64,000 nucleotides of DNA. Source: a virus. The stretch covers positions 1 to 64,000 of the IMG/VR virus record IMGVR_UViG_3300046536_000256; one strand, written 5' to 3'. The notes below the pieces were generated by a model, which did no database searches, was not told the DNA's origin, and saw only the letters and a program-made list of their open reading frames with translations. This document shows positions 25,514 through 34,839 of this stretch, piece after piece (the stretch's first letter is position 1; each line of letters starts with the position of its first letter). The position numbers were made by a program, and so were the translations under genes.

Positions 25514-26836
25514 TTAGCCCATGAGAGCGGCGATGGAAGCCGGCAGCGCAACCTGAGCGGAACCACCAGCTGGTGCTGGCAGACCGATAGGTGCGCTGTC
25601 AGTACCTTCCGACAGGTTGCTGGAGATTGCACCCTGAGCCAGACGACCCAGACCCGAACCCAGCGCACCAGCTGCCAGACCCAGAGTACCAGCAGCGGTG
25701 TACTTGCCGAACTGGTTGTCGATCACGCCTTCCAGCATTTCACCAGCGAAGAACGAACCGACGATACCGGCAACTGCACCGATACCACTGCCGACGCTCA
25801 GGCTGCCACGGTGACCAGTTTCCAGAGCAGCGCCCAGCAGAGCACTACCTGCGGCAACCCAACCAGCACGCACGCCGTCGTCACGTTCACCACGCAGGGA
25901 GAAACGCGAACGAGCTTCAGCCGACTGAATAGCCGGTTTGAAGGTCTTGGCGAATTCCTGGAACTTGGCGTTTGCTTCAGGCACCTGGCTGACGAAGGTG
26001 TGGAACTGTGCATCGTTGCTCAGACCTTCCGGTGCTGCTTTGGCGGTTGCCGAAGCTTGTGGTTGGAAGGCCAGGTTCTCGGACAGGAACACGTTGTACA
26101 GCTCGTCGCGTTGCGCTTCGGTTGCGTAACCAATAACCACCAGGTCAGCAACAAAGATTTCCAGAGCGGTTTTCGGTTTGGCTTCGTTGTTCATAACAGT
26201 CGACTCGTTGGTGGCGGTGGATGCGGCAGGCGCAGCGGTTTCAACAGCAGGAGTGTTAACAGCGGTCAAAGCGATCAGAGTAGTTTTCATGGTTGGTTGC
26301 TCCAGGGAAGTGTTAGAAGTGTTAGAAGTTTGTTCGGCGGTAGCGGCAGGTGCCACTTGTTCTTGTACAGCCACACCGGATACCGGCGCGGGTTCAAGCG
26401 TTGCATTTTGTTGCTGGCCATGATTCAGGATCCATTCTTCGGAACCTGGTTCACCGACCAGTTGATGCGTTTCAGAGTGCACAACGCTTTCTGGCGCTGG
26501 GGTCTGAATGTTGATTACCGATTCACCGTGCAGCTCGTCCACTGGGATCAGTGTACCTTCCAGGGCCGCAGTTGCAGGGGATGTTGCAGCAGCCAGCAGA
26601 GTTGGATCTGCTTTACGCACTTGGTTCATGCTGAAGCCAGTACCGAGTGCTTCGTTAACGCGTTTCAGGAAAGTCTGACGATGCTGCTTTTCCAGGAACG
26701 CTTCGTCGAACATCTTGGCCTTCAGTACAGCCTGGATGGTTTGTGCATCGCCGCCATTGCCTTTGATTGTTTTCAAAGCTTCGATGGTAGCTTCCAGAGC
26801 CAGTTCATAAACAGGGCGTTCAATTTGCGAATTCAT
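25514..26836 (-). CDS. 440-aa protein with glycine-zipper-like C-terminal domain
   Basis: The start is ATG 26836, with AGGAG 8 nt upstream; a longer frame has no site and covers the promoter. The N-terminal 75 residues are helical. A long Ala/Thr/Pro/Gln-rich, probably disordered middle follows. Residues about 330-410 are Gly/Ala-rich and hydrophobic with G-x(3)-G spacing (GSGIGAVAGIVGSFFAG, TLGLAAGALGSGLG). Such glycine zippers insert into membranes in outer-membrane and toxin proteins. A role at the membrane or in the virion is possible. Own promoter element and terminator. Confidence 0.65.
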   Translation of the reverse strand: MNSQIERPVYELALEATIEALKTIKGNGGDAQTIQAVLKAKMFDEAFLEKQHRQTFLKRVNEALGTGFSMNQVRKADPTLLAAATSPATAALEGTLIPVDELHGESVINIQTPAPESVVHSETHQLVGEPGSEEWILNHGQQQNATLEPAPVSGVAVQEQVAPAATAEQTSNTSNTSLEQPTMKTTLIALTAVNTPAVETAAPAASTATNESTVMNNEAKPKTALEIFVADLVVIGYATEAQRDELYNVFLSENLAFQPQASATAKAAPEGLSNDAQFHTFVSQVPEANAKFQEFAKTFKPAIQSAEARSRFSLRGERDDGVRAGWVAAGSALLGAALETGHRGSLSVGSGIGAVAGIVGSFFAGEMLEGVIDNQFGKYTAAGTLGLAAGALGSGLGRLAQGAISSNLSEGTDSAPIGLPAPAGGSAQVALPASIAALMG

Positions 26837-26909
26837 TGGGTGTTGCTCCTTGTCGGGAAAGTGTAATGTTCTGCGTAACACAAAGATATTTGTATTACTT
26901 ACTGTGATA

Positions 26910-27000: not shown

Positions 27001-27432
27001 TTACTTACCGAGGCTGTACGCTTCGTTGGTAAAGGTTAGTTTACGGCCCGCCCAATCGGTTAATACGGTTTGGCACGCCAGGATGTCATACTGGTTAAAG
27101 TCGTAGGTCAAACTCATGTGCGGAATGTAACCCGCATACGGAGTCTCGTAACCAGCGGCTTTAAGGCGGAGGTGTTCTTCTTGCAAGTCCTTACTGGTCA
27201 AACGAAAGATCAAACCGTCACCCAGAATCTCCAACGCCACGACATGCGCTTCGAAGATTCGTGTAGGGTCCAGAACAGCTAGGGGTTTATCGATATCCCG
27301 CTCATCGTAGATCAGCGTTGAGTGGAAGTCATGCTTGGGTGCAGGAGCGATGCCAGCAGCACTCAGAAGAGTAATCAGCTCTGCTTCGAAGTCACTGGTC
27401 AGTTCAACCGAGATGTAGCTGTAATCCATCAT
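27001..27432 (-). CDS. acb1-like: 2H phosphoesterase, Acb1-like (putative anti-CBASS nuclease)
   Basis: The 143-aa product starts at ATG 27432 with GAGG 6 nt upstream. Two H-x-T/S motifs, H37-S-T39 (HSTLIY) and H105-M-S107 (PHMSLTY), mark the 2H phosphoesterase fold and are 68 residues apart. T4 Acb1 is 152 aa with two H-x-T motifs at about the same spacing. It degrades the cyclic nucleotides that activate CBASS defence. The alternative is a generic 2H enzyme such as an RNA 2',3'-cyclic phosphodiesterase. Size, spacing and the Y-x-P-H-x-S/T-L-x-Y context favour Acb1. It is the last gene of its unit. Confidence 0.65.
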   Translation of the reverse strand: MMDYSYISVELTSDFEAELITLLSAAGIAPAPKHDFHSTLIYDERDIDKPLAVLDPTRIFEAHVVALEILGDGLIFRLTSKDLQEEHLRLKAAGYETPYAGYIPHMSLTYDFNQYDILACQTVLTDWAGRKLTFTNEAYSLGK

Positions 27433-27440
27433 CAGGCGCC

Positions 27441-28160
27441 TCAGGAAGGGAAGGGGGTGTCCAATACAATCCCTTGGTGGTTGTCGACGATGTCCAAACA
27501 ACGGAACACAGCAAAGACCCCCTTGTGTTCAGTCGACAGCCGGTTCGCTTCTTCCATCGCCAGCGCCTTGGTCTGATGACGATAAGGAACGTTGTGGATG
27601 TTGACCGCGCCGGTTTGGGTTACCTTACCGATAATGAAACGACCCAGCGTCTTGGCGTACTTCGGTTTGTAACTTGCAGTGCCAGCCAGCGTGAGTTTGT
27701 TGTGGTACATCTGGAAACCTTCCCAGCGTGCATTCACCCACTGCATGACGTACTTGTCGCGGGAATCACGGTCCAGTACCTTGGGATCGAACGAGCCTTC
27801 TTCAAACAGCAGGTTCTCGAACTCTTCCCGTAAGGTGCAGTTCTTGTTATCCGGACGAGCAGCCACCGGAGGCATGCCATGACCCTGTTGCAATTCGCGA
27901 GTAGTGCGGCGCGTTAGGGGAATGGCCACGACGTAAGGATCCGTGTCGTTAGCCGGGGTGTAGACCATTACTGGTGCATCTTCTTTGACATTTGGACCAA
28001 TGCGTTCGTGCAGGACTTCTACCGCTTCTAACAGAGCGGCTTCAACGTTAGGTTGCCCCAACTCTACGGTGCGCTTGTTTACCCATGCTTGATCAATTGC
28101 GCGCAGCGAGAGTGGTTCGGTGGACAAGAAATCCACCGGAGTCAGTTCTTGAACAGTCAT
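27441..28160 (-). CDS. Unknown 239-aa protein with W-module-like segment
   Basis: AAGGA precedes ATG 28160. AIDQAWVNKRTVELGQPNVE (about residues 21-40), followed by AALLEA, has the W-V, G and Ala positions of the repeated W-module. The centre is beta-type (VMVYTPANDTDPYVVAIPL) and the C-terminal half alpha/beta. It lies directly upstream of the Acb1-like gene in the same unit. Function unknown. Confidence 0.6.
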   Translation of the reverse strand: MTVQELTPVDFLSTEPLSLRAIDQAWVNKRTVELGQPNVEAALLEAVEVLHERIGPNVKEDAPVMVYTPANDTDPYVVAIPLTRRTTRELQQGHGMPPVAARPDNKNCTLREEFENLLFEEGSFDPKVLDRDSRDKYVMQWVNARWEGFQMYHNKLTLAGTASYKPKYAKTLGRFIIGKVTQTGAVNIHNVPYRHQTKALAMEEANRLSTEHKGVFAVFRCLDIVDNHQGIVLDTPFPS

Positions 28161-28180
28161 TGCTTATTCTTTCCTTGAGT

Positions 28181-28648
28181 TTATTCGTGGCTACCCGGTA
28201 CATCGAAGTTTGGTAGCCCTGGAAGGTCTCCGTCCAGAATCTCGGAGACCCAGCGACCGCCGGCCATTTCAATCGCACGCCAATCAGCAGTTCCGCCGAT
28301 TTGTTTGGCGTACTCGTTTAGCAAACGCGGGTGATAGTTGTGGTCGCCCATGAGACAATGGCCGAGGCGATCAGCGATTCTGGAAAGGTCATCGTGATCA
28401 GCACCTTCTACCCGACCATCCGGGTGCAGGACTTGGACGCCGTACCACTTGCAATAGTTTTCCATCGTCACAATGGGTTTGCCGAAAGTAGACGGCGACT
28501 GACACAGCAGCGGAATGCCGCGTTGACTTACGTAGACCTTTGTCTTCGGTTGCCCCGGAACTGTGACCCACTGGATGATGTGTGGGTCACTCTCTTTATT
28601 ACGCCCCGGAACTTCTGCGGGTGCTTCTGGTTGAATTTCGTTCGCCAT
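28181..28648 (-). CDS. Unknown 155-aa protein
   Basis: GGGGAG lies upstream of ATG 28648. The N-terminus is Pro/Glu-rich, and a His/Asp-rich stretch (GADHDDLSRIADRLGHCLMGDHNYHP) could bind metal. Its first 121 bases overlap the end of the 28528-28926 gene in another frame. No known family. Confidence 0.6.
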   Translation of the reverse strand: MANEIQPEAPAEVPGRNKESDPHIIQWVTVPGQPKTKVYVSQRGIPLLCQSPSTFGKPIVTMENYCKWYGVQVLHPDGRVEGADHDDLSRIADRLGHCLMGDHNYHPRLLNEYAKQIGGTADWRAIEMAGGRWVSEILDGDLPGLPNFDVPGSHE

Positions 28649-28926
28649 CTTTGTTTCTCCCCTGAAGAAGGTTGTTTAGGTCCGAATATCTTGTCGTGGA
28701 ATTTCATTGAAGCCACCATACCGAACGCAGCCCCACACCCCGCACTTATCCCAATGGTCCACTCCCCCTTAACTACTAGGGTAATAGCGGCTACGTCAAA
28801 CGCCGCCATTAAGAACGATGTGAAAAATACAGAGCGGGTGTGGTTACCTATTACGTTCTTGTACTGGAACCCTTTTAGAAACACCGCACAAAAAGACGAT
28901 CCAACACTAAGAGCATATAACAGCAT
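28528..28926 (-). CDS. Small integral membrane protein with long C-terminal overlap
   Basis: The 132-aa product has three or four hydrophobic helices (about residues 2-18, 31-52 and 57-75) and a basic C-terminal tail of about 50 residues. The ATG shares a base with the RNase HI stop (TAATG), which supports its reading. The last 121 bases overlap the next gene in a different frame, unusually long for this genome. Function unknown; a holin-like role cannot be excluded. Confidence 0.6.
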   Translation of the reverse strand: MLLYALSVGSSFCAVFLKGFQYKNVIGNHTRSVFFTSFLMAAFDVAAITLVVKGEWTIGISAGCGAAFGMVASMKFHDKIFGPKQPSSGEKQRWRTKFNQKHPQKFRGVIKRVTHTSSSGSQFRGNRRQRST

Positions 28927-29414
28927 TAGCTTAATCCGCTGTATTCAGTGTCATGGGTGGTAGGTTTGGCGGCAGCGTCTTTAGCGATCTGGTCCGCCTC
29001 TTCGTTATCAGGGATACCGGAGTGAGCCTTAACCTTAATGAACTTAACCTTATTCACCCTGAGCAACTCGTTCAGGATGATCCACAGGTCTTTGTTCTTG
29101 ACCATCTCGCCGTTGCGGGTAAGCCAGTCATTACGGTACCAGTTCTTGACCCACTTAGTCGAACCGTCAATGGTGTACTGTGAGTCGGTATAGATGTTGA
29201 TCCGGGCGTTCGGACCAAACTCCTCCAGCGTGGCAATTACTGCCATGATTTCCATGCGGTTGTTGGTAGTTAAGTAATAACCCTTGGAGAGTGTGACCTT
29301 CTGGTCTCCGCATCTCACCACAGCCCCATATCCGCCAGGCCCCGGGTTGCCCAAGGCGCTACCGTCAGTATGCACCTCGTAAACAATCACCGGAGCCTTC
29401 TTAGCTTTTGCCAT
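28926..29414 (-). CDS. rnhA: Ribonuclease HI
   Basis: A 162-aa protein with all RNase HI catalytic residues: D17 (TDGSALGNPGPGGYG), E55 (NNRMEIMA), D77 (YTDSQY) and D141 (NEEADQIA), plus the assisting H131 (VKAHSG). The usual basic protrusion (WVKNWYRNDW) is present. It cuts the RNA strand of RNA-DNA hybrids, so it would remove primers during phage replication. It is followed by a coupled membrane-protein gene and preceded within one base by the beta-helix genes. Confidence 0.95.
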   Translation of the reverse strand: MAKAKKAPVIVYEVHTDGSALGNPGPGGYGAVVRCGDQKVTLSKGYYLTTNNRMEIMAVIATLEEFGPNARINIYTDSQYTIDGSTKWVKNWYRNDWLTRNGEMVKNKDLWIILNELLRVNKVKFIKVKAHSGIPDNEEADQIAKDAAAKPTTHDTEYSGLS

Positions 29415-30353
29415 CTAACACACCGCGCTATGCCGTAAGTATTTCAAATGAAAGGCCTTCTCTATTATCTTCAATAGATCGACCCGAGAGTTAATGCAGT
29501 CCCGAATATACCGGAGTTGATCCAAGATTAATTCTTCGCCCCGTTCTTGCAGTATCCGGAACAGTTGGTCGTCAAAATTGGGATGACCGAATTCAATGTG
29601 AAAACGATTACCCCTGAGATCGGGCGCAACCGCCCAAGCATCTTTAGCCGTTTGAAAGGCATACAGGGTAGTCCGTGGCAGAGTGATCTCCAAGAAGAAC
29701 ATCCGGCTACGGATATACACTGTGGGTGCTGTTAACCGTACACTAGTCCAAAATACATCGGAAATGTATAACAGTCCTACACAGTTGACGTGGCTATTCG
29801 TTGCATTCACATGTGTAAGATCGATGTCGGCGTTAGTAAAGAATGTGCAGTGCTCCAGACTACAGTCTACGATACTGACAGTAGACTTGGTTGAAATCAC
29901 CGAACAGGATTCAATCCAACAGTTAGAAATCCAAGCATTTTTAGAGACGGCGGCATCTAAGAGCTCTACCTCGTCAAACGTTACCCCCGTGTAACTGTTT
30001 CGTTCTTTACCGTCACTGACAAGCACATCAGAGATGGTGTAGTTACACCCGATGCTGTAGATGTTGGCAACGGCGCAACGCCCGTGAAAGGTGTCGTTCT
30101 TACTCGTGCAGTTCTTGAGTACCACATCGCAGTACTCAAGGTCCTCAATATCCTCGTCCTCGTTCACCTGAAGTGACAGGTATTTGTTCGAGTCCACCTC
30201 CACGATGGATTCAGGACAGAGGCTGTATTTCAACATGTACTGCCCAATCGGGAAGTAGTAGCGGTCAACGCCCTCAATAGGTGCCGCGAGTTCCGGGAGG
30301 GGCATCGCGTTCAGCTTTACCCCGTCCAAATACAGACCCGGTTTTTGTGTCAT
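29415..30353 (-). CDS. Beta-helix-like protein, copy 1 of 3 (312 aa)
   Basis: AGGAG lies upstream of ATG 30353, and the start overlaps the previous stop (ATGA). The N-terminus (GLYLDGVKLNAMPL) matches copy 2 (GVYIDGHKLEPIRL). Residues about 75-205 show short repeats with Asn/Ser/Cys/Thr turns, as in right-handed beta-helices. A beta domain (TAPTVYIRSRMFFLEITLP) and a C-terminal helix (RYIRDCINSRVDLLKIIE) follow, both shared with copies 2 and 3. Cysteine content is high for this genome. Function unknown; polysaccharide or receptor binding is one idea. Confidence 0.65.
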   Translation of the reverse strand: MTQKPGLYLDGVKLNAMPLPELAAPIEGVDRYYFPIGQYMLKYSLCPESIVEVDSNKYLSLQVNEDEDIEDLEYCDVVLKNCTSKNDTFHGRCAVANIYSIGCNYTISDVLVSDGKERNSYTGVTFDEVELLDAAVSKNAWISNCWIESCSVISTKSTVSIVDCSLEHCTFFTNADIDLTHVNATNSHVNCVGLLYISDVFWTSVRLTAPTVYIRSRMFFLEITLPRTTLYAFQTAKDAWAVAPDLRGNRFHIEFGHPNFDDQLFRILQERGEELILDQLRYIRDCINSRVDLLKIIEKAFHLKYLRHSAVC

Positions 30354-31285
30354 ATTGGATCTCCTAACGTTCTTTCGAATTCAGCCCACAGGACCTGGAT
30401 GATTCTCCGGCGAGAACGAATGCAATCTACCACGTAATGATAGATGTCTTTCGGCAGAGCCAGTTCACAGTCAACCAATAACTCGGTCAACTTGGCCTCG
30501 AACTCTGGGTCATCCACCGGGACGTTAAACCCACCGCCTTGCCGGGTGATGGCAAACTCATCATTCCCCGTCTGATAACAGTACAGTGTCAGGTTAGGGA
30601 AATCCAAGCTGAAGAAGTACAAGCGGTTAGGGATGTGGCAGTCATCCACCTTCAGGTACATCTCGTTCAAACGGCTGTCGATTATCCGGATGAAATTCGC
30701 GGCATGTACACTGGCGTCGTTGAACTTACTCCCCTCCAGAACCAACGCTCCCTTAGAAGAGAACGACGAGTTCTTCATCGTGGACCCTTCGATACGTGCC
30801 TGACCCTCTGTGTGGACCGTGGAGTTGATGATTGACGAGTTGAGTACGAAGCTACCATCAGAGATCGTAGCGTTCTCCAAACGCGAGCTGATGACCGTCT
30901 GGTTGACTAACGGGTGCAGACGCGCGGTTTGCATCGACGAACGCGAGATATCCGAGTTCACGATGTTGCAAGCATTGGTCACCGTGTTGCTCAATACGCA
31001 GTTACCAGTAAAGGTATCGCGGTAACTGCTGCTGTTCGTGACGGTTACCCACGCGTGATTCTCGTCATCATTGTCCTCTTCGATTTCCAAGTCGAGGTAA
31101 GCAGCAGAGTCAATCTTGACCACCGAGTGTTCATCAAGAAAGAAGTGGAGTGTTAGGATCCCCACGGCTACTCGGTATTGATCGAAATCCCCAACACCGC
31201 CTTCATCGTCAACAGAGGGGTAAGTGTTTAGCCGGATAGGTTCCAGCTTGTGACCGTCAATGTATACGCCAGTTTCGTGTTCCAT
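30350..31285 (-). CDS. Beta-helix-like protein, copy 2 of 3 (311 aa)
   Basis: Begins at ATG 31285 with AGGAG upstream. The order is the same as copy 1: N-terminal YIDGHKLEPI, repeats with N/S/T-rich turns (LENATISDGSFVLNSSIINS), then IPNRLYFFSLDFPNLTLYCY and the helix YVVDCIRSRRRIIQVLWAEF. Copies 1 and 2 have almost the same length. A TATG motif after a hairpin lies just upstream. Confidence 0.65.
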   Translation of the reverse strand: MEHETGVYIDGHKLEPIRLNTYPSVDDEGGVGDFDQYRVAVGILTLHFFLDEHSVVKIDSAAYLDLEIEEDNDDENHAWVTVTNSSSYRDTFTGNCVLSNTVTNACNIVNSDISRSSMQTARLHPLVNQTVISSRLENATISDGSFVLNSSIINSTVHTEGQARIEGSTMKNSSFSSKGALVLEGSKFNDASVHAANFIRIIDSRLNEMYLKVDDCHIPNRLYFFSLDFPNLTLYCYQTGNDEFAITRQGGGFNVPVDDPEFEAKLTELLVDCELALPKDIYHYVVDCIRSRRRIIQVLWAEFERTLGDPI

Positions 31286-31310
31286 CAAAAAGCTCCTAGC
31301 AAAACATAAC

Positions 31311-31332
31311 CCACCGGAGTTTCCTCCGGCGG
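31311..31332 (-). terminator. Hairpin after the 31345-32808 gene
   Basis: CCACCGGAG (31311-31319) pairs with CTCCGGCGG (31324-31332), with one wobble. It is followed on the minus strand by TTATGTTTTGCT. Confidence 0.65.
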
Positions 31333-31344
31333 ATTAGTGTTCAG

Positions 31345-32808
31345 TTAGACTGCGTAGATGTCGTCCCAAGGCCTTGTGCGGTCACCAACTTCGCGGACAA
31401 GCTGTCTAGCTTCATCCAACAGGCGAACGACTTTCAAACGAGACGTGATCGAGTCAGTCAGGTAACTCGCGATGCTGCGAGTCAGTAAGGTTGGTTGTGT
31501 GTGAAACCCTTCAGGGTCCATTGACAACTGCATAGCAATGAACTTCTGAATATCTTCGTCCGGAGTATCCAGACGCATGCGCTCCATGCTGTGTTGCTGA
31601 GTGCCCAGATCGAAATCCCGGCGAGTGGAGCGAACGAAGTACAACTTGTGTTGCGGGGTATCCAGCTCCAGGTAGGAGAACTTGTTGGGAACGTACACCG
31701 ACGGAGCGCTGATGTGCACACCATTGAAGCGGGTGTGTTTCACCAACAACTCACCCTCAGCGATTACACCCGATTTGTTCAGGTGGACATCTTTGACGGT
31801 AATACGGGTACCGCGAACGTTGGCGTCGAACAACTGGCTACCGGTAACCGTGACGTACCCGCTGCCGCTGACTTGAGTGTCGTGGATTTGTGAGTCGCGG
31901 TAAACACCGTGGGACACTGCCGAGTTAAACACCGAGGTACGCTTGAACTGACCCTCTTTAACGTTCATGCGTTCACGGATGTCTTTCGTCGGCACAGCTG
32001 GCTCTTCGCTCAGGTGGTTAAAGCCATACCCGTAACGATGGTCCACTTCCTTGGTACGCGCCAGTACAGAATTGTTCAGCACGTTAAAGGAAGACTCGGT
32101 GTTCACCAACAGTGATTCACCGATTGGCAGATCCTCGTTGCTGGACGAGTTGATCAAGACCAGTGTGCCATGAATGGCGAGGTTGGTTGGAGCGTGGCTG
32201 TTATGACGCGTTTCACCGCCACCCAGGGTAACTGTGGAGTTACCGTCCAGCAAGTAGTACGATTCAATCCCGTTGTTCTTCAACAGATACAGCGAGAAGA
32301 CTTTGTCGGCGTACAACTGGCTGACCTGGTGTGGCAAGTAGAACGCCTTCGGCAACAGGCTGTTACGGATGCGGTTGTAATCGACTTTCAAGCCGGTCGC
32401 AATCGGTTCCTGCAACACGCCTTCAAACATGAAGGTACCGGTGGCCTGAACCGATTGCAGCGCGTTGGCCACCGCTTCGGAGATCTTGGCTTCCGGGTCG
32501 AGGCCAGCCGCCTTCAGCACCTTTTCGGCGTTACGGATCTGGCGGTCGGTTGGCACTTCTTCGGCAACATCGGTGCCCGCAGGGGTTATGTGAGGCGCGG
32601 TAAAGCTCTTAGGATTATCCGAAGTCTCTTGAGCGATAGTCCCGATAGGTTCTTTGAAGGCCTTTTCCAGGTTCTTCTCGAACAGACTGTTTGCGGCTTC
32701 CTGAGTGAAACCTACTTCCTTTGCGGTGTCTAACGCCTTGAGCGCTTCGGCCACAGGCTTCAGGGTAAATTTATCCCCGTTGGCTGGTTTCTTTTCCACT
32801 TTACTCAT
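31345..32808 (-). CDS. Beta-helix-like protein, copy 3 of 3 with N-terminal extension (487 aa)
   Basis: Start at ATG 32808 (AGGAG upstream; 8-nt overlap with the ligase gene). The first 165 residues are helical, including PVAEALKALDTAKEVG, and are absent from copies 1 and 2. Then come beta-helix repeats (VFNSAVSHGVYRDSQIHDTQ) and the domain common to all three (APSVYVPNKFSYLELDTP), ending in the helix YLTDSITSRLKVVRLLDEA. The extension resembles the N-terminal part of the 25514-26836 protein in composition only. Confidence 0.65.
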   Translation of the reverse strand: MSKVEKKPANGDKFTLKPVAEALKALDTAKEVGFTQEAANSLFEKNLEKAFKEPIGTIAQETSDNPKSFTAPHITPAGTDVAEEVPTDRQIRNAEKVLKAAGLDPEAKISEAVANALQSVQATGTFMFEGVLQEPIATGLKVDYNRIRNSLLPKAFYLPHQVSQLYADKVFSLYLLKNNGIESYYLLDGNSTVTLGGGETRHNSHAPTNLAIHGTLVLINSSSNEDLPIGESLLVNTESSFNVLNNSVLARTKEVDHRYGYGFNHLSEEPAVPTKDIRERMNVKEGQFKRTSVFNSAVSHGVYRDSQIHDTQVSGSGYVTVTGSQLFDANVRGTRITVKDVHLNKSGVIAEGELLVKHTRFNGVHISAPSVYVPNKFSYLELDTPQHKLYFVRSTRRDFDLGTQQHSMERMRLDTPDEDIQKFIAMQLSMDPEGFHTQPTLLTRSIASYLTDSITSRLKVVRLLDEARQLVREVGDRTRPWDDIYAV

Positions 32809-34768
32809 GAAGTGCTCCTGCTTTAATCTGTTGAATGAGTGCATCGATGCTCGAGGCAGCGGTTGCGTTAATCGTAGGGATATGCTGTTCAGCTGCTTTT
32901 AGTATCTTGCTCTGACCAGGCTTCTCCCCGATGAGGAGGTAATTGCAATCCTTGGTGAGTTTATCCACCAGTTCAATACCATGATCCCCGAAGTAGCTTT
33001 CCAGTTCTTCCCGGGCTTGACCGATGGTACCGGTGATGCAGACCTTCAGTTCCGTAATCGGACCCTCAGGCTCAACCAGAACATTAAGGTTCGCCAAGAT
33101 ACCTTCTGCGTTCTCCACGAACTCTTCACTTTCAAAGCTCAGGGCAATCGGGATAGACAAACCAGCAGAGAACCCTGGGATCTTGATCAGTTCGTCAGCA
33201 TTACCCAACCACTGAAGCAAGTTCACATTCCCCGGCCATGCGGCGGCCAGCTTCTTGGCACGCGTCAGATCAACACCAGGCAGACCCAGCGCCTTAATGA
33301 CACGGGACAACGGTTGACCTTTGCGCACTTCCTGAATGCGGTTGTAGATCTTCTCACCTACCACACGTTCATTTAGAAGAAGGATATCCACAGGCAACTT
33401 GATATAACCCTGTTCGATCAACTCGGCAACAGTCACAGGACCCAAGTCGTCGATATCCAGCGTGCGTTTGTGCGCAAGGTTCACGCAACGCAGCACAAGC
33501 TGTGCAGGACAGTCTGTGACGTTGGTACAGATGAGATCGGCACTCTGCTTGGTGATGCGCTTCTCCAGCGGCATGCAGCAGCTAGGGCACTCCTCAGGCG
33601 CTTTGAAGAGTTCACCTTCGCCATGTTCAATCACACGGTTCAGACGAGGGATCACATCCCCGTTACGAGTCACACCGATTACCGAACCTTTACGCAGCTC
33701 CACCGCTAGGAACTGTTTATAGTTGTCCAGATACGTGCGAGCACAGATCACCCCACCAATGCGGGTAGGAGCGTAAAGCCCCACCGGCACCACACGACCA
33801 GTACGAGTGGTATTCCACACGATATCGGTCAGAGTAGTAGCAACCTCCACATCTGGGTACTTGTACGCCAGCGCCCAGTTAGGGTACTTGTTGGTGACCC
33901 CCAGCTTTTCTTGCAATTCAAAGTCGTCGACCTTGATCACAATACCATCGGCTGGCCAGTCCTTGCTGTTGATGTTCTCCCGGATCGCTTCCAGCGACGC
34001 AACAGGCGCGCAATGGAAACCCAGCAGGGTCAGGTGGTTACGCAGTTCGCTGTACTTCTTCTTGCCCAAGGTACTGCTGCAATAGTAAGCGCCGAACCGC
34101 AGGATCCCTTTAACCGCGTGGTTCTGGTTCTCCGGCAAAGCACGAATCCAACCGCTGACTGCGTTACGAGGGGTAGCGGCTTGTTTAAGCGCTGTCTCGT
34201 TATACAGTTCAAAGTCGTGACAGGTGATGTGCCCTTCACCGCGGATGTTGACAGTGCCCGGGACAGGAACGTTGTTCAGGTCAGTCAGCATCCTTGGGAT
34301 GTTCAGACCGAACAAAGGCAAAGCATGGGTAACGTCTTCGCCCACCAGACCGGACCCACGAGTCACCATGGATATCAGTGGACCGTCGACATACGTCAGT
34401 TCCAACGCAATACCGTCCAGCTTAAGTTCATAGAAGAACAGAGTGTCTTCCGGGAACCGTGCGAGGAACTTGTCAACCGCGTCTTGGTTCAATCCCTTCT
34501 TCAAGCTCAGCATTGGGCTATCGAAGGTAACGGGTTTCAGGCCTTCATTAGTAGGCTCGTGGATTGGCACGGGTTTGCGAGCGGTTTCGAACAGTTCGGC
34601 AATTTCCGGGTGTTCCTCGGCCAACTCTTCGAAGCGCTCGACCATCTGGTCGTACAGATAATCTGGGATCTCAGACGTGTCCTTATTGAAATAAAGATCC
34701 GCGTGGTACATGATGTCACGATTTAAATCGTTCATCTCTGTGAAGATCGTTTTATGTTTTGCTTTCAT
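32801..34768 (-). CDS. ligA: NAD-dependent DNA ligase
   Basis: The 655-aa product is about the size of E. coli LigA (671). Starting at ATG 34768 (AAGG upstream), domain Ia (IPDYLYDQMVERFEEL...HPE) is intact, so it should use NAD. The adenylation site K116-L-D-G is followed by TRGSGLVGEDVTH, NIRGEG, DGIVIKVDD and NWALAYKYP. TGRVVPVGLY and RKGSVIGVTRNGDVIP mark the OB fold. A four-Cys zinc finger (CPSCCMPLEK...CTNVTDC), the HhH region and a C-terminal BRCT domain (KVCITGTIGQAREELE) complete it. It seals nicks in phage replication. Phages more often use ATP-dependent ligases. Confidence 0.95.
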   Translation of the reverse strand: MKAKHKTIFTEMNDLNRDIMYHADLYFNKDTSEIPDYLYDQMVERFEELAEEHPEIAELFETARKPVPIHEPTNEGLKPVTFDSPMLSLKKGLNQDAVDKFLARFPEDTLFFYELKLDGIALELTYVDGPLISMVTRGSGLVGEDVTHALPLFGLNIPRMLTDLNNVPVPGTVNIRGEGHITCHDFELYNETALKQAATPRNAVSGWIRALPENQNHAVKGILRFGAYYCSSTLGKKKYSELRNHLTLLGFHCAPVASLEAIRENINSKDWPADGIVIKVDDFELQEKLGVTNKYPNWALAYKYPDVEVATTLTDIVWNTTRTGRVVPVGLYAPTRIGGVICARTYLDNYKQFLAVELRKGSVIGVTRNGDVIPRLNRVIEHGEGELFKAPEECPSCCMPLEKRITKQSADLICTNVTDCPAQLVLRCVNLAHKRTLDIDDLGPVTVAELIEQGYIKLPVDILLLNERVVGEKIYNRIQEVRKGQPLSRVIKALGLPGVDLTRAKKLAAAWPGNVNLLQWLGNADELIKIPGFSAGLSIPIALSFESEEFVENAEGILANLNVLVEPEGPITELKVCITGTIGQAREELESYFGDHGIELVDKLTKDCNYLLIGEKPGQSKILKAAEQHIPTINATAASSIDALIQQIKAGALHE

Positions 34769-34839
34769 TGAAAAACCTTCAAGCATAAATAAGGTTAAGG
34801 TAGGAGCCTGAGGATACCTCCCCAAGCTCCATGGTATTC

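Follow-up and report, generated by a model that had tools for sequence, protein, structure and literature searches.

An Acb1-family 2H phosphoesterase with an altered substrate-binding surface in nucleus-forming jumbo phages, a candidate factor against cyclic-nucleotide defence

The window analysed here is a stretch of 64,000 nucleotides (positions 1 to 64,000 of virus record IMGVR_UViG_3300046536_000256) from a phage record of 233,283 bases. Its minus strand carries a short gene for a predicted 2H phosphoesterase, together with the genes and signals collected in Table 1. The 143-aa reading frame starts at the ATG at 27432, 8 nt from the upstream gene; a longer in-frame alternative starts with TTG at 27501, and close relatives start at the ATG position. 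The Shine-Dalgarno-like site overlaps the stop codon (TGA) of the upstream gene and the gap is short, so that the two genes are probably translationally coupled. At the other end, the hairpin has a perfect stem, TATACCCCTTATCCCGC-TAAT-GCGGGATAAGGGGTATA, and the 81-nt stretch around it has a dG of -36.6 kcal/mol (z -7); it probably marks the end of a transcription unit in which the Acb1-like gene is the last. Comparison with an 89%-identical relative (L009) gave a dN/dS of about 0.12, indicating purifying selection on the gene. Further downstream (25514-26866, minus strand) lies a gene for a protein of about 440-480 aa with a glycine-rich C-terminus, for which tblastn over 50,697 phage records found no match; only partial matches were seen, in the relatives L027-L029 and L033.

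Table 1. Features of the 2H phosphoesterase locus, in window coordinates
Feature	Position	Strand	Basis
17-bp hairpin directly after the Acb1-like stop codon	26961..26998	-	folding
Acb1-family 2H phosphoesterase, 143 aa	27001..27432	-	Pfam Acb1 51.4 bits; AF2 pLDDT 90; top five PDB fold matches Acb1-type
Codons H105-M-S107, second catalytic HxT/S (= T4 H113/T115)	27112..27120	-	alignment to T4 57B
Codons H37-S-T39, first catalytic HxT (= T4 H44/T46)	27316..27324	-	alignment to T4 57B
GAGG, Shine-Dalgarno-like site, overlapping the upstream gene's stop codon	27439..27442	-	sequence
Adjoining gene, 239 aa; homologues in Pseudomonas EL/phiKZ-like phages at other loci	27441..28160	-	
Adjoining gene, 155 aa, phrog_19982; common in phiKZ-like Pseudomonas phages	28181..28648	-	
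Small holin-like protein, phrog_7045	28528..28926	-	
RNase H, syntenic marker upstream of the Acb1-like gene	28926..29414	-	Pfam RNase_H E 3e-41
Homologue of EL gp122, NAD-dependent DNA ligase; start of the conserved block	32801..34825	-	

The order NAD-dependent ligase, RNase H, 2H gene, all on one strand, is also found in EL, RisingSun, Aphrodite1, pTD1, Vibrio phage 2 and PDCC-1, and in Miami RNase H lies upstream of the 2H gene. Between RNase H and the 2H gene EL has a DHH phosphoesterase, RisingSun seven genes, Aphrodite1 a single small gene and the window phage three genes that are unknown or holin-like, and because of this varying content the two adjoining genes (27441-28648) look like exchangeable cargo in a variable slot. 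The original prediction had suggested that these two genes may be counter-defence factors as well, for which we found no support: no defence family or curated protein family (Pfam, PADLOC, NCBIfam) matches them, their homologues are all of unknown function, in phiKZ/EL-like phages, and the slot varies among phages. The model of the 28181-28648 protein (pLDDT 72) found no PDB fold match better than E 0.3. Between the ligase and RNase H (29415-32844, minus strand) stand three genes in a row (312, 312 and 499 aa) that seem to be paralogues and lack a Pfam match; EL has a single counterpart of them (gp123). The DHH/DHHA1 phosphoesterase of EL (gp125, L002:10512-11750) lies directly upstream of the EL Acb1-like gene. 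DHH/DHHA1 enzymes can degrade linear dinucleotides like those that Acb1 would release.

The gene was originally singled out by two motifs, H37-S-T39 and H105-M-S107, in a 143-aa protein whose motif spacing and size are close to those of T4 Acb1. These observations hold (His-to-His spacing of 68 residues vs 69 in T4, and 143 vs 152 aa). The motif pair alone is weak evidence, since 1.9% of composition-preserving shuffles also contain two HxS/T motifs 60-76 residues apart. The family match is nevertheless not due to chance and the protein belongs to the Acb1 family: (i), Pfam Acb1 (PF23474) scored 51.4 bits (E 1.2e-13, cut-off 27) and was the sole Pfam family above its cut-off, and 12/12 relatives in a first alignment matched the same model. 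(ii), profile-profile comparison with T4-type Acb1 (hhalign) gave a probability of 99.9 and an E-value of 1e-34. (iii), FBB1 Acb1 was the sole credible match of the single protein in the PDB (E 0.004), and the family alignment retrieved BCSR5 Acb1 (E 9e-10) and FBB1 Acb1 (E 5e-9). (iv), the catalytic tetrad H37, T39, H105 and S107 aligned with T4 H44, T46, H113 and T115; across 25 homologues the first three never vary, and position 107 holds either Ser or Thr. Two side observations concern the wider family. The C-terminal parts of some portal proteins (PDB 8hds, the Pam3 portal, and Rhizobium phage portals, hits H118-H120) weakly match the Acb1 profile, which suggests that a 2H-like domain is fused to some phage portals. 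A search of GTDB genome contigs based on the family alignment, resting on a single pattern, found no bacterial relatives.

The predicted structure points the same way. An AlphaFold2 model built with 21 relatives (pLDDT 90, pTM 0.83) was compared with solved structures, the original prediction having proposed a superposition on T4 Acb1, and proved closest to the solved Acb1-type enzymes. In Foldseek searches of the PDB the first five chains were all Acb1-type (BCSR5 phosphodiesterase, TM 0.76-0.81; FBB1 Acb1, TM 0.63-0.66), followed by the Arabidopsis cyclic phosphodiesterase, archaeal 2'-5' ligase-like proteins and LigT. On TM-score alone, FBB1 Acb1 comes no nearer than the plant enzyme (0.70), but the order of E-values (1.3e-7 for FBB1 Acb1, 4e-5 for the Arabidopsis enzyme and 2.5e-3 for E. 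coli LigT) speaks for Acb1, as do the sequence profiles. In a comparison with predicted viral structures, first place went to a RisingSun protein that bears the name 'Anti-CBASS protein Acb1' (TM 0.92). A better match to RNA-ligase-type 2H enzymes had been named beforehand as an outcome that would refute the prediction; by both profile and fold, the better match is to Acb1.

The ligand-binding surface departs from the T4 pattern. In T4/FBB1 Acb1 the stackers are Y12, W74, F107 and W147, E141 contacts the adenine, a C-terminal lid spans residues 145-152 (Hobbs et al., PMC9117128), and W74, E141 and the W147 lid contact the bases and close the pocket (PMC9117128). The window protein has Tyr at both the Y12 and F107 positions, the former being aromatic in 24/25 alignment rows. 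At the position of W74 (F in FBB1) it has Leu, and the whole jumbo-phage branch has Leu or Met. Opposite E141 the alignment places a Ser, and opposite T4 E138 a conserved Glu, in a tail whose register is uncertain. The lid is absent: the protein ends 3 residues past its last predicted strand, which is preceded by a helix (residues 114-123), and has no Trp at the tail end. The combination of Leu/Met at position 74, HxS in the second motif and nothing aligned to W147 unites 17 rows (the window phage, EL, RisingSun, the Aphrodite/pTD1 group, OBP/AH04, the Munch group, L030 and RaouZK), all with Ser at position 107, a conservative change from the T4 Thr. This jumbo branch groups apart from the T4-, KVP40-, Milchi- and BcepSauron-type proteins with moderate support (87/89), some deep branches being long and their placement unsure. 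In the tails of OBP, AH04, L030 and RaouZK a Trp lies a few residues before this position and might substitute for W147.

T4-type ligand-binding features are thus only partly present. Since the branch has not conserved the lid or, at one position or more, the base contacts, the substrate specificity is expected to differ from that of T4 Acb1. The argument from the missing lid is tempered by BcepSauron and Motura, relatives of the BCSR5 enzyme, which also lack the T4-type C-terminal Trp although both open and closed lids are described for the BCSR5 structure. The original proposal of an Acb1-type anti-CBASS enzyme has therefore to be divided: sequence profile, profile-profile comparison and predicted structure all place the protein in the Acb1 family, but W74 and the W147 lid, both ligand contacts in T4/FBB1, are not conserved and E141 is doubtful. 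It is most safely described as a 2H phosphoesterase of the Acb1 family, belonging to nucleus-forming phages and altered in its substrate-binding surface.

That the window phage is a nucleus-forming jumbo phage (Chimalliviridae) is predicted from its chimallin-type nuclear shell gene at G000:135029-136870 (minus strand; PHROG nuclear shell E 4e-133, phiPA3 PhuN E 2e-4). The shell protein is of the EL/AH04 type; a single AH04 query misses the phiKZ and PCH45 counterparts, showing how diverged the shell lineages are. The close homologues of the neighbouring genes are mainly in Pseudomonas phages, which suggests a Pseudomonas host. Surveyed with the Pfam Acb1 model and a branch-specific profile, the Acb1-like gene was present in the window phage, its relatives, EL, RisingSun, Aphrodite1, pTD1, OBP and, by the Pfam model, AD1, with 9/9 matching records above the Pfam cut-off. 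The same two models did not find it in phiKZ, PhiPA3, 201phi2-1, Goslar, RAY or PCH45, and in SPN3US detected only a fragmentary, stop-containing trace (E 0.0045). The Vibrio phages Eric and Ariel (phiKT1019, phiKT1028), reported to be nucleus-forming (PMC10587174), carry the gene. Such patchy presence in nucleus-forming phages fits an accessory (anti-defence) function.

The main rival, and a real one, is that the protein is a housekeeping 2',3'-cyclic phosphodiesterase acting on RNA ends, or processes RNA or nucleotides together with RNase H and the NAD-dependent DNA ligase (in EL also with DHH gp125), with no role in defence. The gene order speaks for such a role, being fixed in EL, RisingSun, Aphrodite1, pTD1 and other Vibrio/Photobacterium phages with RNase H upstream in Miami as well, as do the DHH/DHHA1 neighbour in EL, the plant cyclic phosphodiesterase as next structural match and the partial lack of T4-type base contacts and lid. 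However, Pfam 2_5_RNA_ligase2 (PF13563) reached only 13.5 bits against a cut-off of 27, LigT (PF02834) appeared for 1/12 relatives at E 0.22, the fold is nearer to Acb1, and seven nucleus-forming phages do without the gene (counting SPN3US with its trace), which argues against a general need. We regard a housekeeping role as unlikely, while giving it serious weight.

Existing annotations deserve a comment. Records label EL gp126, RisingSun gp120 and Aphrodite1 gp165 'RNA ligase', and UniProt names the RisingSun protein Acb1. We rejected the 'RNA ligase' label of PHROG 755 as a functional description: T4 gp57B, the founding Acb1, bears the same product name. Acb1 homologues, including T4 gp57B itself (NC_000866 57B), are widely annotated in this way and so hidden from text searches. 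The original RisingSun record calls its homologue a 'putative structural protein', a label that we found unsupported and that would fit a degenerate or virion-associated protein with no catalytic function. As gp120 is absent from the text of the RisingSun paper, including its mass-spectrometry table (PMC6034870), and as the branch keeps the tetrad without exception and dN/dS is low, we consider a non-catalytic protein highly improbable.

The most likely function, and in our view a reasonably probable one, is that of a cyclic-oligonucleotide phosphodiesterase blunting CBASS-type signalling. The phage nucleus hides DNA from nucleases, not from small-molecule signalling or RNA-reading defences. 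A phiKZ-like nucleus-forming phage was stopped >10^5-fold by CBASS (PMC10889362), so nucleus-forming phages would profit from protection, and both 3'3'-cGAMP and cAAA are substrates of T4 Acb1 and of nine homologues (PMC9117128). The enzyme would act in the host cytoplasm and open small cyclic oligonucleotides, presumably CBASS cyclic di- and trinucleotides and possibly also cA3, the messenger in type III CRISPR-NucC defence. In this scheme a ribose 2'-OH, assisted by the two His and the Thr/Ser pair, would attack the neighbouring 3'-5' phosphate; cleavage would be metal-free and pass through a 2',3'-cyclic phosphate, and death effectors (nucleases, phospholipases) would thereby stay unactivated. 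Counting against an anti-CBASS role are the differences from the T4/FBB1 contacts at W74, at the W147 lid and, apparently, at E141, and the fixed site beside nucleic-acid enzymes with no evident anti-defence island. Our literature search found no report of an assayed jumbo-branch member.

An Acb1 fold with shifted specificity, directed mainly at type III CRISPR rings (cA3, perhaps larger) or at other defence messengers rather than at CBASS dinucleotides, seems to us distinctly improbable. The nucleus does not shield phage RNA, and the nucleus-forming PCH45, which lacks the Acb1-like gene, is stopped by type III CRISPR via NucC (PMC13282480); T4-type Acb1 already cleaves cAAA, and the missing lid could open the pocket. 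Yet T4 Acb1 cannot cleave cA4 (PMC9117128), and a single sensitive phage without the gene proves nothing, raising only the cA3 hypothesis. It is correspondingly a long shot that one nucleus-forming group kept the lid-less branch to destroy type III CRISPR cyclic oligoadenylates (cA3, perhaps larger rings); were it so, the branch would close the gap that the nucleus leaves by exposing phage RNA in the cytoplasm, as an Acb1-fold anti-CRISPR ring nuclease.

Databases already label relatives as Acb1, so the assignment itself is not new; what is new is the lid-less variant of the branch, its fixed gene order and context, and its own question of specificity. According to a 2026 review, no anti-defence protein other than Tad1 of phiKZ has been described from jumbo phages (PMC13282480). 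Our Acb2/Tad1 profile search found neither in the window phage, but the profile also missed phiKZ, said by a review to encode Tad1, so that nothing follows from the absence. If active, the enzyme would represent a second, enzymatic anti-defence strategy, in the EL/RisingSun/Aphrodite group, and its altered lid would reveal how the specificity of Acb1 enzymes is adjusted.

Among known systems, the closest counterparts are EL gp126, RisingSun gp120 and Aphrodite1 gp165 (45, 44 and 38% identity), probable orthologues that share the gene order and differ in which genes separate RNase H from the 2H gene. T4 Acb1 (gp57B) and FBB1 Acb1 (PDB 7t26/7t27) share with the window protein the 2H fold, the HxT/HxT-type tetrad, the size and the aromatic equivalents of Y12 and F107; the window protein departs from them in its HxS second motif, its Leu for W74, the Ser tentatively aligned with E141, the absent W147 lid and the helix before the last strand, at about 16% identity. 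The Acb1-type phosphodiesterase of the Burkholderia jumbo phage BCSR5 (PDB 9q2g/9q2y) is the best fold match (TM up to 0.81, 18% identity), but it keeps W74, and its relatives keep HxT and fall in another branch of the tree. The 2'-5' RNA ligase/LigT/ThpR proteins and the plant cyclic phosphodiesterase have the 2H superfamily fold and motifs in common with the window protein, which they match less well than Acb1 does in both sequence and structure.
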